Of a stretch of 52,377 bases of DNA, positions 29,358 to 36,497 are shown piece by piece; the stretch's first letter is position 1; the number at the start of each line of letters is the position of its first letter. The position numbers were made by a program, and so were the translations under genes. The notes below the pieces were generated by a model, which searched no databases, was not told where the DNA came from, and was given only the letters and a program-made list of their open reading frames with translations. The DNA comes from Desulfobulbaceae bacterium (GTDB lineage Bacteria; Desulfobacterota; Desulfobulbia; Desulfobulbales; SURF-16): positions 75,047 to 127,423 of the forward strand of contig PKTX01000004.1 in the NCBI GenBank assembly GCA_002868945.1, in the 5' to 3' direction.

Positions 29358-30677
29358 ATGACAACTTTACTGACATTCCCCAAGGGCGGCGTTCACCCTC
29401 CGGCAGCAAAAGAGTACACCGCGCATCTGGCCACGGAAGCCATGCCGGTTCCCGACGAGCTGGAAATCATTCTCGGTCAACACATTGGCGCGCCCTGTAC
29501 TCCCACTGTCAGCAAACGGGCCGAGGTTGAGGAGGGCGAGCTGATCGGCGAGGTCAAAAAAGGGCTGGGTGTGCCTCTGCATGCTCCCGTGGCCGGCACC
29601 ATCAAGACCTTCGGCACCTCCGGCCACCCCATGCGGGTCTCGGCCCCCTCCATCACCATTCGTACCGATCAGGCGGCGCCGGCCCGCACCTATGAAAAAA
29701 AGGCGTGGTCACAGCTTGATGCCAAGGAGCTGCTGGCCAAGGTCCACAATGCCGGCATCATCGGTATAGGCGGCGCCGGTTTTCCCTCCCATGTCAAGCT
29801 CAGCCCTCCCCCGGACAATCCCATCGACACCCTTATCCTGAACGGTGCCGAATGTGAACCATACATCACCGCCGACCATCGTCAGATGCTGGAGAGAAGC
29901 GCCGAGATTGTCGAAGGCGCCAAGATTATCCTGAAGATTCTCGGTATCACCACCTGCCACATCGGCATTGAAAACAATAAACCCGATGCCATCAGCGCCA
30001 TGAACGTGGCCGTGGCCAATGCCGCCTCCGAGGAATTCACCATCAAGGTCCAGCCCCTGCAGGTCAAGTACCCACAGGGCTCGGAAAAGCAGCTTATCCA
30101 GGCCGTCACCGGCCGTAAGGTTCCTGCTTTTGCCCTGCCGTCAGCGGTGGGTGTCGTGGTGCACAACGTCTCCACCACGGCGGCCATCCATGATGCCGTG
30201 GTCCTTGACAAACCCCTCTATGAAAAGGTGGTGACCATCTCCGGCAAAGGCATCAGCAGGCCTGCCAATCTGCGGGTCAAGGTGGGCACCAAGCTCAGCG
30301 ACATTGTCGACTACCTGGGCGGTGTTACCGACGATCTGGCCAAGATCGTCATGGGCGGCCCGATGATGGGCTTTGCCGTTTCCAGCCTCGACATCCCGGT
30401 GACCAAGACCACCTCGTCGGTGCTCTTTCTGGCCGAGGACGAAATCGACACCTCTCCCCACTCCCAGTGCATCCGCTGCGGCTGGTGCCTGGAGGCGTGC
30501 CCCATGGGTCTGGAGCCCAAGGAGGTCGCCATCCATGTCGAGGCCGGCCGGCCACAGGACACCAAGCAGTTTGGTGTCTTTGAATGTTTTGAATGCGGCT
30601 GCTGCGCCTTTGTCTGTCCGGCCAAGCGGCCACTGGTGCAGTTTATCCGTCTGGCCAAGATGAAGGCCGCCGGTTGA
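29358..30677 (+). CDS. rnfC: Rnf complex subunit RnfC
   Basis: 439 residues. It is the cytoplasmic NADH/NAD+-binding, FMN- and Fe-S-containing subunit of the ferredoxin:NAD oxidoreductase. Features in order: N-terminal barrel with FPKGGVHPP, glycine-rich nucleotide site IIGIGGAGFPSHVK, NGAECEPYITADH (FMN/NADH region), an SLBB-type segment (TISGKGISRPANLRVKVG), and two 4Fe-4S motifs CIRCGWCLEACP and CFECGCCAFVCP. First gene of rnfCDGEAB. No clear ribosome-binding site precedes the ATG. Confidence 0.97.
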   Translation: MTTLLTFPKGGVHPPAAKEYTAHLATEAMPVPDELEIILGQHIGAPCTPTVSKRAEVEEGELIGEVKKGLGVPLHAPVAGTIKTFGTSGHPMRVSAPSITIRTDQAAPARTYEKKAWSQLDAKELLAKVHNAGIIGIGGAGFPSHVKLSPPPDNPIDTLILNGAECEPYITADHRQMLERSAEIVEGAKIILKILGITTCHIGIENNKPDAISAMNVAVANAASEEFTIKVQPLQVKYPQGSEKQLIQAVTGRKVPAFALPSAVGVVVHNVSTTAAIHDAVVLDKPLYEKVVTISGKGISRPANLRVKVGTKLSDIVDYLGGVTDDLAKIVMGGPMMGFAVSSLDIPVTKTTSSVLFLAEDEIDTSPHSQCIRCGWCLEACPMGLEPKEVAIHVEAGRPQDTKQFGVFECFECGCCAFVCPAKRPLVQFIRLAKMKAAG

Positions 30678-30836: not shown

Positions 30837-31907
30837 ATCAAACAGCAAGACCCTGCCAACCTGGCGACTCAGGCCGGCCATGGCTTATGGAAAGTCTCGG
30901 TTTCCCCCCATGTGCGCAGCAGTGAGTCGGTTGAAAAAATCATGTGGAGCGTGGTGGCCTGCCTGGTGCCGCCCCTGATTCTGTCGACCTTCATCTTCGG
31001 CATCCAGACGTTGATCATCACCGCGGTCTCCGTGGCCAGCTGCGTTGCCGTGGAGGCCATCAGCCAGAAGGTGATGGGCCGCCAAGTAACGGTCCGCGAC
31101 GGCAGTGCCGTGATCACCGGCATGCTGCTCGCCTTTGTTATTCCACCCGGCGTTCCCTACCTGCTGCCGGTATTGGGGGCGGTGATGGCCATCTATATCG
31201 GCAAGCACCTGCTGGGCGGCATCGGTTACAACATTTTTAATCCGGCCCTGCTGGGCCGCGCCTTCCTGCTTGCCACCTTTCCGGTGGCCATGACCTCTGC
31301 CTGGTTGCCGGCAACACCGCCCTCGGAGATGGCCCTGTTCAAGTATCTGGGCACGGACATTGATGCCGTATCCACCGCCACCCCCCTGGCCCTGCTCAAG
31401 GAACAGGGCATGACCGCTGTCAACGAGACCTTTGGCGCCACCGCCAACCTCTATACCGACTTTTTCCTGGGTATCCGGCCCGGCTCCATTGGTGAGACCT
31501 CCGGACTGCTCATCCTTCTGGGCGGCCTCTACCTCCTTTATCGGCGCTACATTTCCTGGCATATCCCGGTAAGCATGCTGGCCACCATTGGCCTGCTCAC
31601 CTGGATCTTCGGCGGCGTCACCCCCTTCAGCGGCGATCCGCTGCTGGCCATTCTCTCGGGCGGTGCCCTGCTCGGCGCCTTTTTCATGGCCACTGATTAT
31701 GTCAGCAGTCCCACCAATAAAAAATCGCAGCTTATTTACGGCATGGGCATCGGCGCCCTTACCGTGCTGATCCGTCTCAAGGGTGGTTATCCGGAAGGGG
31801 TCTGCTACGCCATCCTGCTCATGAACCCCATCAGCTCGGTGCTAGATTCCTGGTTCAAGCCCAAGAGATTTGCCGCCCCCCTGCCTTCCCAGGGAGGTGC
31901 CAAATGA
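30837..31907 (+). CDS. rnfD: Rnf complex subunit RnfD, apparent ATC start
   Basis: About 356 residues, a membrane subunit with nine to ten helices. The family block VSVSPHVRSSESVEKIMW begins about 20 residues in. The flavin-attachment region reads STATPLALL (about residue 182), where relatives usually have SGATPL; the threonine that carries FMN is kept. The only good ribosome-binding site (AAGGAG, 30824-30829) is followed at 7 nt by ATC AAA CAG CAA. No ATG, GTG or TTG lies in frame between it and the conserved block; the first GTG (30912) would cut into conserved sequence and has no binding site. Translation therefore seems to start at ATC, or an ATG was altered here. The end overlaps rnfG by ATGA. 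Confidence 0.88.
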   Translation: MKQQDPANLATQAGHGLWKVSVSPHVRSSESVEKIMWSVVACLVPPLILSTFIFGIQTLIITAVSVASCVAVEAISQKVMGRQVTVRDGSAVITGMLLAFVIPPGVPYLLPVLGAVMAIYIGKHLLGGIGYNIFNPALLGRAFLLATFPVAMTSAWLPATPPSEMALFKYLGTDIDAVSTATPLALLKEQGMTAVNETFGATANLYTDFFLGIRPGSIGETSGLLILLGGLYLLYRRYISWHIPVSMLATIGLLTWIFGGVTPFSGDPLLAILSGGALLGAFFMATDYVSSPTNKKSQLIYGMGIGALTVLIRLKGGYPEGVCYAILLMNPISSVLDSWFKPKRFAAPLPSQGGAK

Positions 31908-32800
31908 AGGATATCTTCACCATTATCATCCGCCTCACCCTGGCCTGTATCATGGCCGGTCTGGTCATGGGCACCACCTATATTTTTACCAGCAACGCCA
32001 AGAAACATAACGAGCATGTCAACGAACAAAAGGCCATGTACGGTCTGCTCGGTTACGGCCCCGCCAACCAGGCACCCGACTCCATGGTCCTGCACGCCTT
32101 CTATCGCTACATAGTCAGCCATGACGATCTTCTCCACCTGGGGTATCTGGTTCCCCTGCAGGACAAGGGCTTCAGCTTTGTCACCATTGACCTGGACGGC
32201 AACTTTGTGGCGGCCCGGCAAGTGGATATCACCGGCAAGGAGGCCATTGAAGAAGAGGCGCGTCACCAGGCCATCGCAGCCGTTTTGGACGAAGAAGCCA
32301 CCATCCGCTATGCCGACAAGACCATCGTCGCCACCAACGACGGAAGGCGTCAGGCCTACCTGCTGCCCGGCGCATTCCCCGGCTTCAAGACCTTTATCCA
32401 CGTCATGCTGGCCCTGGATCCCCACTTTACCGTCCTTGGCCTGGAGGTCATGGAGCATGAGGAGGATCCCGGCCTGGGCGGTGAGATTGAAAAGGACTAC
32501 TTCAAAAACCAGTTTACCGGCAAGCCGTATGAGGTCTTAAAACACCTGGACGTCACCAAGACGCCCCTGCCCGACGACTATCGCCGGGCCCTGGAGGCGG
32601 ACCGCACCGGCATGAGCGCCGACGATGTCCGTGTCATCCAGGAGCAGTACAAGGATAAGGATATCTACGCCCTCACCGGCGCCACCATTTCCAGCCGGGC
32701 CGTTACCAACGGGGCCAAGGCCATTGTCAAGAAATTCGCCTATCGCCTCGGCATTCTTGACAAGGTCCTGGCGCAGGAAAATATTGCCGTCCCCTTTTAA
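31904..32800 (+). CDS. rnfG: Rnf complex subunit RnfG (covalent FMN)
   Basis: 298 residues, longer than the roughly 200 of typical RnfG. One N-terminal membrane helix (about 5-28) anchors a periplasmic FMN-binding domain. The flavinylation motif TGATISS is near residues 257-263; ApbE attaches FMN to its threonine, and apbE lies at the end of this cluster. The GLEVMEHEEDPGLGGEI block is the usual conserved stretch. The extra length lies between the membrane helix and the FMN domain (about 45-140). Confidence 0.95.
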   Translation: MKDIFTIIIRLTLACIMAGLVMGTTYIFTSNAKKHNEHVNEQKAMYGLLGYGPANQAPDSMVLHAFYRYIVSHDDLLHLGYLVPLQDKGFSFVTIDLDGNFVAARQVDITGKEAIEEEARHQAIAAVLDEEATIRYADKTIVATNDGRRQAYLLPGAFPGFKTFIHVMLALDPHFTVLGLEVMEHEEDPGLGGEIEKDYFKNQFTGKPYEVLKHLDVTKTPLPDDYRRALEADRTGMSADDVRVIQEQYKDKDIYALTGATISSRAVTNGAKAIVKKFAYRLGILDKVLAQENIAVPF

Positions 32801-32812
32801 AGCGGAGAGAGT

Positions 32813-33430
32813 ATGGCTACAGACAAGTCAAATATACAGCTGATTACCAACGGCATCTTAAACGAGAATCCCATTTTTCGTCTGGTGCTTTCCATGTGTC
32901 CGGCCGTGGGCATCAGCACCACGGTGATGAATGGTATTATGCTGGGGGTTGCCGTCCTCTTTGTCCAGGTCTTCTCCAGCGTCACCATCTCCATCTTCAA
33001 GAACGTCATTCACCCGCGCATCCGCATCCCGACCTACACCCTGACCATTGCCACCTGGGTAACGGTGATCGACCTGCTGCTCGCCGCCTACCTGCCCGAG
33101 GCCTACGGCAAGATGGGTATCTTCGTCAAACTGATCGTTGCCTTTGCCATCATCACCATGCGCCTGGAGATGTTTGCCTGCAAGGAATCGGTGCAGGCCT
33201 CCTTCTGGGATGGTATCGGCATGGGCCTGGGCTTCATGTTCGGCATGATGGCCATCGGCTTTGTCCGTGAGCTTCTGGGCATGGGCACCCTGCTGGGCTA
33301 TGATATTCTCGGCTTTCAACCCTTGCTCTTTTTTGTCCTGCACTGCGCCGGTTTCTTTGTGGTGGGGCTGATGATGGCCTTTTTCAACTATGTCGAGATC
33401 ATCTACAAAAAAACGAAACAGGGGGCCTGA
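32813..33430 (+). CDS. rnfE: Rnf complex subunit RnfE
   Basis: 205 residues, six helices. The RnfD/E family start NGILNENPIFRLVLSMCPA, the central YTLTIATWVTVIDLLL, and the MRLEMFACKESVQASFWDGIGMGLGF region are present; the paired cysteines (one in each half) bind the membrane-embedded 2Fe-2S cluster with RnfA. The ATG follows GCGGAGAGAGT. Confidence 0.96.
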   Translation: MATDKSNIQLITNGILNENPIFRLVLSMCPAVGISTTVMNGIMLGVAVLFVQVFSSVTISIFKNVIHPRIRIPTYTLTIATWVTVIDLLLAAYLPEAYGKMGIFVKLIVAFAIITMRLEMFACKESVQASFWDGIGMGLGFMFGMMAIGFVRELLGMGTLLGYDILGFQPLLFFVLHCAGFFVVGLMMAFFNYVEIIYKKTKQGA

Positions 33431-33443
33431 GGGAAAAGCTATT

Positions 33444-34388
33444 ATGAAAAACATCATGCTCCGCCAGATTATCATTATACTGCTGCTCTGCGGCCTGCCC
33501 GGTCTGACCCAGGCCGCGGACCTCATTGCCGACAAGAGCTTTGGCGACGACAATGAAATCATCGTCACCTTCAGTCAGGCCGTTGACATGGAGGCCGCCA
33601 TCAATCCGGCCAATTACACGGTCTACGAGGAGCCGGACCCGGATATCCGTCTGAGCGTCGAGGCCGTCAGCGTGGCCGACGACCTGATGAGCGCCAGCCT
33701 GCGCTTTCGTGAGCCCCTTAACACCAGTCAACCCCATGTGGTGGCCATAGCCAATCTTAGCCCCGACCCGGAGGTGGTAACCACCTTCACCGTGGCCAAA
33801 CCTTATATCGGCTATCTGCTCGGCATCCTGGTCTCCGCCCTGCTTATCAACAACTTTGTTTTCACCAAGTATCTTGGCCTCTGCGTTTTTTTCGGCACCT
33901 CAAAGCGCAAGGATACAGCCAAAGGCATGGGCTTCACCTTCACCATCGTGATAGTGGTCTCCGCCATTATGAGCTGGTTTTTCTACCAGTTCATCCTCAA
34001 GCCTTTTGACCTCAACTTCCTGCAGATTGTTATCTTCATCGGCCTGGTCTCCCTTACCGTTCAGGCGGTGGACACCATCCTGCGCAAGGTGAATCCCGAC
34101 CTCTTCAACGCCTTTGGAGTCTACCTGGTGCTGGTTATCGCCAACTGCGTCATTATTGCCGTACCCCTGATCCTGGCCGATAACGAGTATAATTTCTTTG
34201 AGACCTTCATGCTGTCGCTGGGCGCCGGCGGCGGCTTCCTGCTCGCCCTCTACCTGATGAGTTCGGTACGCGAACGCATAGAACTGGCCAACGTGCCGCC
34301 TACCTTCAAGGGTGTACCCATTGCCTTTATCGTGGCCGGCCAGTTTGCCCTGGCCTTTCTCGGTTTTTCAGGAATGCAGCTCTTTTAA
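33444..34388 (+). CDS. rnfA: RnfA with N-terminal secreted Ig-like extension
   Basis: 314 residues instead of the usual 190 or so. Residues 1-24 form a clear signal peptide (MKNIMLRQIIIILLLCGLPG, then LTQA). Residues about 25-115 look like a SbsA/CARDB-type Ig-like domain (IIVTFSQAVDMEAAINPANY, then YTVYE). From about residue 118 the normal RnfA begins: YLLGILVSALLINNFVFTKYLGLC, followed by five more helices; the cluster-binding cysteines are present in LGLC and ANCVII. The extension would sit in the periplasm beside RnfG. The start has GAGGGAAAAGC upstream and the frame is continuous, so this is one protein rather than two. Confidence 0.94.
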   Translation: MKNIMLRQIIIILLLCGLPGLTQAADLIADKSFGDDNEIIVTFSQAVDMEAAINPANYTVYEEPDPDIRLSVEAVSVADDLMSASLRFREPLNTSQPHVVAIANLSPDPEVVTTFTVAKPYIGYLLGILVSALLINNFVFTKYLGLCVFFGTSKRKDTAKGMGFTFTIVIVVSAIMSWFFYQFILKPFDLNFLQIVIFIGLVSLTVQAVDTILRKVNPDLFNAFGVYLVLVIANCVIIAVPLILADNEYNFFETFMLSLGAGGGFLLALYLMSSVRERIELANVPPTFKGVPIAFIVAGQFALAFLGFSGMQLF

Positions 34389-34454: not shown

Positions 34455-35330
34455 ATGGATCCAGCATTAGTCAAATTAGCCTTGGGCGGCGTGGCCCTGC
34501 TTGCCTGTATCGGCCTTTTTTTCGGCATCGGCCTGGCCCTGGCCGCCCACAAGTTCGCTGTGGAGACCGATCCCCTTATCGAAGAGGTTCTGGAATCTCT
34601 GGCCGGAGCGCAATGTGGCGGCTGCGGCTATCCCGGCTGTGAGGGTTACGCCATTGCCGTGGTCACCGACCCTGATGTCCCCCCCAATCTCTGTTACCCC
34701 GGCAAGGAAAAGGTGGCGGAGCGGGTGGCCGAACTCACCGGCAAGAAGATGGCGGAGATAGAGGACATGATTGCCCTGGTGCGCTGCTCGCGCCCGGAGG
34801 GGCGGGTCAGCCACAAGCACGAATACATCGGCTTTGCCTCCTGCACGGCCGCCAATCTCGGCTTCGGCGGACCATCTGCCTGTCAATACGCCTGCATCGG
34901 CCTGGGCGAATGTGCCCAGGCCTGCCCCTTTGACGCCATCACCATGGTGGACGGCTTTCCGGCGGTCAATCCGGATAAGTGCGTGAGCTGCGGCACCTGT
35001 GTCAAGACCTGTCCCAAACAGATCATGGTCCTGCAGAGTCTCAAGGCCCGGGTCTATGTGCCTTGTTCCACCAAGGATATAGGCAAGAAGGTCAAGGAGG
35101 TCTGCGAGGTGGGCTGTATCTCCTGCCAGATCTGTGTCAAGAAATGTCCGGCCGAGGCAGTGCGCCAGGACAACGGACTCATCCAGATCGACCAGCAGAA
35201 ATGCCTGGACTACGGTCCATCCTGTGAAGAGATCTGCGTGGAAAAATGTCCACGGGATATCTTCCGAAGATATGACGGCCGCCAGGTTATCCGCCGCCAT
35301 CCGGAAAACGGCCTGAAAATGGCGGGCTAG
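34455..35330 (+). CDS. rnfB: Rnf complex subunit RnfB (ferredoxin-oxidising Fe-S subunit)
   Basis: 291 residues. N-terminal membrane helix (about 8-30), then the four-cysteine QCGGCGYPGCEGYA cluster motif, further cysteines in the linker (CSRPEG, ASCTAANLGFGG), and several 4Fe-4S motifs: CIGLGECAQACP, CVSCGTCVKTCP and CISCQICVKKCP, plus a C-terminal set ending CVEKCPRDIF. RnfB takes electrons from reduced ferredoxin at the cytoplasmic side. The ATG follows ACAGGTGTAAAAT, 66 bp after rnfA. Confidence 0.97.
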   Translation: MDPALVKLALGGVALLACIGLFFGIGLALAAHKFAVETDPLIEEVLESLAGAQCGGCGYPGCEGYAIAVVTDPDVPPNLCYPGKEKVAERVAELTGKKMAEIEDMIALVRCSRPEGRVSHKHEYIGFASCTAANLGFGGPSACQYACIGLGECAQACPFDAITMVDGFPAVNPDKCVSCGTCVKTCPKQIMVLQSLKARVYVPCSTKDIGKKVKEVCEVGCISCQICVKKCPAEAVRQDNGLIQIDQQKCLDYGPSCEEICVEKCPRDIFRRYDGRQVIRRHPENGLKMAG

Positions 35331-35453: not shown

Positions 35454-36497
35454 ATGATACCTGCAAAAAAATATCAGTGTGACACGCGGAGAAGATCTTT
35501 CATCAAAGGTGCCGCTCTTCTGGGGCTGGGCGCCGCCACCACCGGCCTGCTGCCGGCCCGCTCTGCCGAGGCGGTGCTCTTTGGCGCCAAGGAGTACAAG
35601 GTCTCCACCACCAGGCTGGCCATGGGCACCTACGTCAACATGACGGCCATCCACCCCTCCCGAGACCAGGCCCAGGAGGCCTTTGCCCTGGCCTTTGCCG
35701 AGATCGACCGCTTGACCGGCCTGCTCAGCCGCTTTGAGGCCGACTCTCCAGTGGCCCGACTGAACAGCAGCGGCCTCCTGCGCCATGCGCCCCAAGAGGT
35801 CCTGGAGCTGGTGGCCCGTTCCCTTTACTACCACAGACAGAGCAACGGCGCCTTTGATATCACGGTCAAGCCCCTCATCGACCTCTATCGGCAAAGCTTT
35901 GCCGACGGCCATAAGCCAAGCGAAGAACAGATCGACTCGGCCCTGGACCGGGTGGGCACCGACCAGCTCCGTTTTCAGGACGGCCATGTCGCCTTTACCC
36001 GGGCGGACATGGGTATCACCCTGGACGGTATTGCCAAGGGCTTTATCGTGGACCGGGCCGCCGAGATATTGAGCCGGCACGGCGTCACCAACCACCTGAT
36101 CAATGCCGGCGGCGACATCCGTACCAGTGGCGCGGCCGCCAAAGGCAAACCGTGGACCATTGCCGTACAGGACCCGGCCAAGAAGAGGGAGTATCCCGAT
36201 ATCATCACCTTAACCAGCGGCGCCATTGCCACCTCGGGCAATTATGAGGTCTATTACGACAACGAAAAGATGTTCCACCATATCATCGACAGTCGCTCCG
36301 GCCATTCACCGGTCCATAGCAGCAGCGTTACAGTGCAGGCTCCCACCGTCATGGATGCCGACGCCCTCTCCACCAGCATCTTTGTCATGCCGCCAGCCGC
36401 GGGCCTGGCCTTGATCGCCGGCCAACCCGGTTGCGCCTGTTTTGTCATTGCCGCAAACGGAGACACGCACCAGTCGCCCTCCTGGCAGAGCAGCTGA
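35454..36497 (+). CDS. apbE: FAD:protein FMN transferase ApbE, Tat-exported
   Basis: 347 residues. The twin-arginine signal RRRSFIKGAALLGLGAATTG (residues 12-31) points to folded export. The ApbE core follows: TRLAMGTYVNMTA, DITVKPLIDLYRQ, DMGITLDGIAKGFIVD, NAGGDIRTSG, and the metal/catalytic HHIIDSRSGHSP and DALST segments. It transfers FMN from FAD to the threonine of RnfG and RnfD. Placement at the end of the rnf operon supports this. The ATG has ACCGAGGACACC in front. Strong palindromes downstream mark the end of the unit. Confidence 0.96.
   Translation: MIPAKKYQCDTRRRSFIKGAALLGLGAATTGLLPARSAEAVLFGAKEYKVSTTRLAMGTYVNMTAIHPSRDQAQEAFALAFAEIDRLTGLLSRFEADSPVARLNSSGLLRHAPQEVLELVARSLYYHRQSNGAFDITVKPLIDLYRQSFADGHKPSEEQIDSALDRVGTDQLRFQDGHVAFTRADMGITLDGIAKGFIVDRAAEILSRHGVTNHLINAGGDIRTSGAAAKGKPWTIAVQDPAKKREYPDIITLTSGAIATSGNYEVYYDNEKMFHHIIDSRSGHSPVHSSSVTVQAPTVMDADALSTSIFVMPPAAGLALIAGQPGCACFVIAANGDTHQSPSWQSS

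Follow-up and report, generated by a model that had tools for sequence, protein, structure and literature searches.

RnfA is canonically a bare protein of about 190 residues, whose N-terminus lies at the first transmembrane helix (TM1). The rnfA gene found in a Desulfobulbaceae bacterium (contig PKTX01000004.1; the window, i.e., the whole stretch of DNA analysed, is 52,377 nucleotides long) departs from this scheme, as it encodes 314 residues, 118–124 of which precede TM1. This locus thus raises the questions of what the extension is, whether it truly belongs to RnfA and what it could do in the Rnf complex.

Anatomy and orientation of the extended RnfA

The gene belongs to a cluster of rnfC-D-G-E-A-B order, followed by an apbE-type gene, all on the forward (+) strand. 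RnfC (439 aa; 29358..30677) and RnfD (30912..31907, start codon uncertain) were assigned from operon order and homologues, and RnfG (298 aa, FMN motif TGAT; 31904..32800) from PF04205 and the match of its model to RnfG/NqrC. RnfE (32813..33430) and RnfB (291 aa, short type; 34455..35330) exceed the cut-offs of their NCBIfam models (NF009070, 207 bits for a cut-off of 184, and NF005503, 446 bits for a cut-off of 252, respectively). The ApbE-type protein (35454..36497), which we take from knowledge of the ApbE family to be a flavin transferase, is encoded next to rnfB, and homologues are likewise placed in the great majority of loci with an extended RnfA. The rnfCDGEAB cluster with its rnfB, together with the RnfB and RnfE scores, places the system among the Rnf complexes; the operon is a complete rnfCDGEAB-apbE one, whose product would be expected to couple ferredoxin:NAD+ electron transfer to ion pumping. 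No other Rnf or Nqr membrane subunit of the PF02508 kind was found in this genome besides the RnfE/RnfA pair. RnfA itself scores 197.9 bits with TIGR01943 (rnfA), 139 with nqrE and 55 with rnfE, and is thus closest to RnfA, at a score below the TIGR01943 naming cut-off of 229.3 bits. It is a divergent RnfA-type subunit, outside the narrow TIGR01943 model.

The reading frame runs from an ATG at 33444 to 34388 (+), over 314 codons without internal stop. As PF02508 covers residues 126–311 only (152 bits, cut-off 23.8, E 2.2e-44), about 124 residues stand ahead of the canonical core. The protein comprises a predicted type I signal peptide (residues 1–24, MKNIMLRQIIIILLLCGLPGLTQA; 33444..33515), a predicted Ig-like periplasmic domain of Big_5/SbsC type (residues 25–118; 33516..33797), a linker into TM1 (KPYIGY, residues 119–124; 33798..33815), whose K119, Y121, G123 and Y124 are kept in 53–57 of 60 relatives, and the six-helix core (residues 125–314 and the stop codon; 33816..34388). 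Upon alignment of the core to 9eri_A, C147 and C235 are the equivalents of the [2Fe-2S] ligand positions. An earlier note on this DNA had described an extension of about 117 residues ending at 33800: the extension is indeed present, but its extent is about 118–124 residues (33444–33815). That an exported Ig-like module of Big_5 fold is fused ahead of TM1 in an RnfA-type subunit is, in our view, almost certain.

The earlier note had itself raised two ways in which this reading could fail, namely that the extension is translated separately (which would make it a small secreted protein of its own), or that translation begins at the RnfA core. A GTG codon at V117, with GTG or TTG at this place in 37 of 60 relatives, could provide such an internal start. 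However, in all 60 relatives the frame is open throughout, with no stop separating the extension from the core; nine of them have no start codon at all between positions 104 and 130, ATG is missing there in 37, and TM1 of the core directly follows the extension. Moreover, the Ig-like domain is under purifying selection in this frame, its pairwise dN/dS being well below 1 for nearly all close pairs, with a still much lower ratio in the core. Either artefact is thus extremely improbable, and chance is ruled out by the dN/dS of the domain and by the occurrence of the fusion in 81 or more genomes of the order. As far as sequence can tell, there is strong support for the extension and the RnfA core being translated as one polypeptide.

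To characterise the domain, AlphaFold2 modelling was combined with structure and profile searches. Residues 25–118 are predicted to form a seven-strand sandwich with a pLDDT of about 90, the RnfA core being modelled with modest confidence only (60–68). The best match among solved structures is the Ig-like domain of the S-layer protein SbsC (Z 14.1, 2.2 Å over 93 residues), followed by that of the S-layer protein Sap (Z about 12), which was also found by profile search (E 2.6e-5). The Pfam family Big_5 (PF13205, formerly SbsA Ig-like domain) matches 31 of 45 homologues (best E 1.8e-7) and gives no match to the window domain itself at E up to 1; a PHROGs search returned no matches. The predicted fold is therefore of the SbsC/Sap (Big_5) type, in agreement with the SbsA part of the "SbsA/CARDB-like" label initially given to the domain, whereas the CARDB part is unsupported.

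This fold tells little about function. Compared to Big_5/SbsA-type domains of surface proteins, with which it shares the fold (Z 12–14) and a weak but significant profile similarity, the present domain carries an invariant PDI loop of its own and occurs as a single copy on an ion-pump subunit of the membrane, not as a tandem surface repeat. The match to the S-layer assembly domains of SbsC and Sap could suggest that it attaches to peptidoglycan, to an S-layer or to a component of the outer membrane, and thereby fixes Rnf in the envelope. Such anchoring is nevertheless very unlikely, given a single, membrane-adjacent domain whose outward loops are little conserved (see below), and a shared fold shows no function.

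The export signal was judged by eye and from its pattern in 60 relatives. Residues 1–24 have the n/h/c layout of a signal peptide (MKNIMLRQ, IIIILLLCGL and PGLTQA, with A after the cleavage point), and an AxA-like cleavage site is found in all 52 relatives devoid of a lipobox. In the sister family f63 and its nearest relatives (L079, L104 and L106), a lipobox (LxGC, e.g., LAGC or LGGC) occupies the same place. Two different cleavage signals ahead of one domain provide good evidence that the export signal is genuine, as the earlier note had proposed. As a separate observation, the extended RnfA of the f63/f47 loci (L102–L107, L152–L170) carries this LxGC lipoprotein signal, and would then be a lipidated ion-pump subunit.

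The orientation of TM1 leads to the same side of the membrane. In Acetobacterium woodii RnfA, K32 is directed towards the cytosolic domain of RnfB, whereas L22 lies outside (PMC11889175); these residues align without gap to K154 and L144 of the window RnfA. The N-terminus of TM1 should thus be periplasmic, and so should the domain, irrespective of whether the signal is cleaved, which is in line with the periplasmic location initially assigned to it. Altogether, it is strongly supported at the sequence level that the export signal carries the domain across the membrane, with the C-terminus of the domain running straight into TM1.

Distribution and origin of the extension

The earlier note had considered the extension as an oddity of this RnfA, but our surveys, and a tree, indicate that it is clade-wide. 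Using a six-sequence profile, full-length extended RnfA was found in 81 of the 258 genomes of the order (counted from the match table), a few more being cut by contig ends; the class survey was a repeat of this order survey. In an even sample of the phylum, the fusion is present in 13 of 395 genomes, window included, which adds five further families; in two of these, it was found in 23 of 46 genomes (plus one partial) and in 18 of 18 (one partial match). Carriers identified by a contig scan include two named isolates (Desulfopila sp. IMCC35008, Desulforhopalus sp. IMCC35007) as well as a single Gammaproteobacteria MAG, which is the sole basis for a spread beyond Desulfobacterota. The locus of this MAG (RBG_16_51_14; L082, MGXK01000084.1) is a full extended operon with an RnfA 58% identical, reflecting either transfer or misbinning.

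When a tree is built from the cores alone, the extended RnfAs form one clade (100/98), the Nqr subunits form their own (100/99), and the Rnf type with a long RnfB falls elsewhere. The sister of the extended clade is the bare, 199-residue RnfA of locus L086 (genome G046, same order), nearest by tree and 58% identical in the core. A single evolutionary origin of the fusion is strongly supported by this topology, and the extended RnfA is, judging from sequence, a clade-wide and largely vertically inherited form.

The extended RnfA also differs from the closest known systems. The RnfAs of A. woodii, Clostridium tetanomorphum and Azotobacter vinelandii (9eri, 7zc6 and 8ahx) share the six-helix core (about 185–189 residues aligned), the Cys positions and the operon partners, but have 190–191 residues, without signal peptide or periplasmic domain, and their RnfG chains are shorter (189–237 residues). 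NqrE of Na+-NQR has a homologous core and about 200 aa without extension, and its partner NqrC is, too, longer than RnfG, but the window operon contains rnfB. Nqr operons of the order first seemed to encode ordinary RnfA; they were told apart by a D subunit of NqrB size, by the lack of an rnfB match and by the tree. Finally, the Tol2-type Rnf (L088, L089 and L097; PMC5109826) occurs in the same bacterial order with the same CDGEAB order, but with a bare RnfA, a short RnfG and an RnfB of about 700 aa. Two genomes (G148 and G149; loci L089, L095 and L099) apparently contain up to three systems each, namely the extended Rnf, Nqr and an Rnf whose RnfB has about 720 residues. Another locus (L087; G192:C59:1-10000) has an rnfCDGEAB operon whose C, D and G genes, as well as the RnfA extension, are split into several frames, owing either to operon decay or to poor assembly; a different contig of the same genome encodes an intact extended RnfA.

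Our search of the open-access literature returned no description of an RnfA extension, an earlier report elsewhere being possible. The extended RnfA is a real and conserved Rnf variant which is apparently undescribed so far.

The enlarged RnfG and the possible role of the domain

The other unusual subunit of the operon is RnfG. Beside an extended RnfA, RnfG has 296–315 aa wherever the rnfD-rnfE space is measurable (the frameshifted L087 was left out), with the exception of L081 (266 aa, masked bases). Beside a bare Rnf-type RnfA it has 192–218 aa, and NqrC has 213–269 aa in Nqr operons. The long RnfG, about 90 residues longer, is thus found only beside the extended RnfA, and both subunits are short in L086, whose RnfG has about 217 aa. 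In the window, the extra region (about residues 60–145; 32081..32338) is predicted to contain strands (61–107) and helices (111–127) ahead of the FMN_bind (PF04205) match (160–275). It precedes and interrupts the FMN-binding domain and is largely absent from the L086 RnfG; the predicted model nevertheless keeps the RnfG/NqrC fold (Z about 12).

This co-occurrence suggests, from sequence comparison, that the Ig-like domain contacts the enlarged RnfG. As it reflects a single clade, it counts as one evolutionary step and not many, and does not prove contact. Furthermore, the partial distance correlation with the RnfA extension is not specific to RnfG (0.50 for the RnfG insert, 0.52 for RnfD and 0.47 for RnfC). 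The position beside RnfG that the earlier note had envisaged for the domain is strengthened by the co-occurrence.

The conservation of the domain itself gives further insight. Consecutive strands of an Ig-like sandwich alternate in direction, and loops AB, CD and EF should therefore lie at the C-terminal end, here the membrane end, as deduced from the Ig topology and not from coordinates of the complex. The CD loop contains a conserved stretch (EEPDPDIRL, residues 62–70, strands C–D; 33627..33653), whose PDI triplet is invariant in all 60 relatives and in all 78 unique extended proteins. The loops at the TM1 end are better conserved than the outward ones (2.65 versus 1.88 bits, p 0.005, the positions not being independent), and the outward FG loop reaches 1.36 bits.

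The domain could alternatively capture a periplasmic redox partner (cytochrome c or hydrogenase) or an envelope protein, providing an extra exit or entry for electrons; the earlier note had envisaged the docking of a cytochrome or of a cell-surface partner. In surface proteins, Big_5-type domains serve as binding or structural modules, the best matches here being S-layer proteins, and periplasmic cytochromes are numerous in sulfate reducers. A cytochrome gene is also present in the cluster of another Rnf type (PMC5109826). In our loci, however, an ORF with at least three CxxCH motifs lies near the operon in only one (L144) of about 70 extended loci, no conserved partner beyond rnfCDGEAB-apbE was recognised among the neighbour genes, and the loops presumably turned towards the periplasm are those conserved least. 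A Cys is present in only one of the 60 relatives' domains, which also makes a redox role of the domain unlikely. The capture of an outside partner is thus unlikely and does not find support here. An invariant PDI loop and conserved membrane-end loops, together with variable outward loops, favour instead docking on the periplasmic face of the complex itself.

The domain might also only stabilise RnfA folding or hold the complex to the surface of the membrane, with no role in gating electron transfer. Its identity among relatives is moderate (26–67%, versus 58–93% for the core), and the lipobox of f63 would tether it at both ends, but a PDI loop kept invariant despite identities down to 26% suggests a specific contact, making a purely structural role rather improbable. 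We consider it fairly probable that the Ig-like domain docks on the periplasmic side of the complex to which it belongs, probably at RnfG.

A mechanism can be proposed on this basis. According to the published mechanism (PMC11889175, reviewed in PMC12174285), RnfG must approach RnfA/E from the periplasm, moving between the RnfA/E cluster and RnfD. The conserved loop end (EExDPDI and EPLNT) would face the membrane, RnfA/E and RnfG, and the domain would sit beside the path of RnfG between the RnfA/E cluster and RnfD. It could there contact the enlarged RnfG and help to hold or gate its FMN domain between the RnfA/E [2Fe-2S] cluster and RnfD, modifying electron transfer and ion pumping by structural means rather than serving as a new redox carrier. 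Gating of RnfG in particular is proposed tentatively. For the explanation as a whole, i.e., an exported Ig-like module which docks on its own complex and holds or gates RnfG, we see about even chances. One further and more doubtful possibility is that of a distinct Rnf subtype, in which the Ig-like domain and the enlarged RnfG would form a periplasmic unit gating the transfer from [2Fe-2S] to the RnfG flavin, and thereby change the coupling, direction or ion stoichiometry.

RnfB variants and implications for Rnf function

An independent observation concerns RnfB. In several loci, the rnfB gene beside an extended rnfA has an in-frame TGA exactly where the iron-sulfur motif AGAQ-C-GGCG has its first Cys (L079, L103, L104/L147, L105, L106/L148, L150, L152, L153, L156–L159, L161, L162 and L170); the equivalent in the window is RnfB Cys54, encoded by TGT (34614–34616). 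A hairpin is predicted downstream of the TGA in all five loci folded, and a strong tRNA-Sec gene is present in all four TGA-rnfB genomes tested. Selenocysteine thus apparently serves as an iron-sulfur ligand in these predicted RnfB proteins; our literature search found no paper on selenocysteine in RnfB.

A BLASTP survey has reported that Rnf is absent from Desulfobulbales (PMC10553843, S9 Fig). Our results disagree with this report, as complete rnfCDGEAB operons are common in the order, many of the loci being named Desulfobulbaceae or Desulfocapsaceae: a complete Rnf is present in a sizeable part of the Desulfobulbales. The way in which electron transfer by Rnf is coupled to ion pumping is a matter of dispute, the moving part being the periplasmic domain of RnfG, between RnfA/E and RnfD. 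A lineage that has added a periplasmic domain to RnfA and enlarged its RnfG would offer a ready-made test of this movement. Finally, the enlargement of RnfG, periplasmic like the added RnfA domain, suggests that these sulfur-cycling bacteria possess a textbook energy-conserving machine in modified form.
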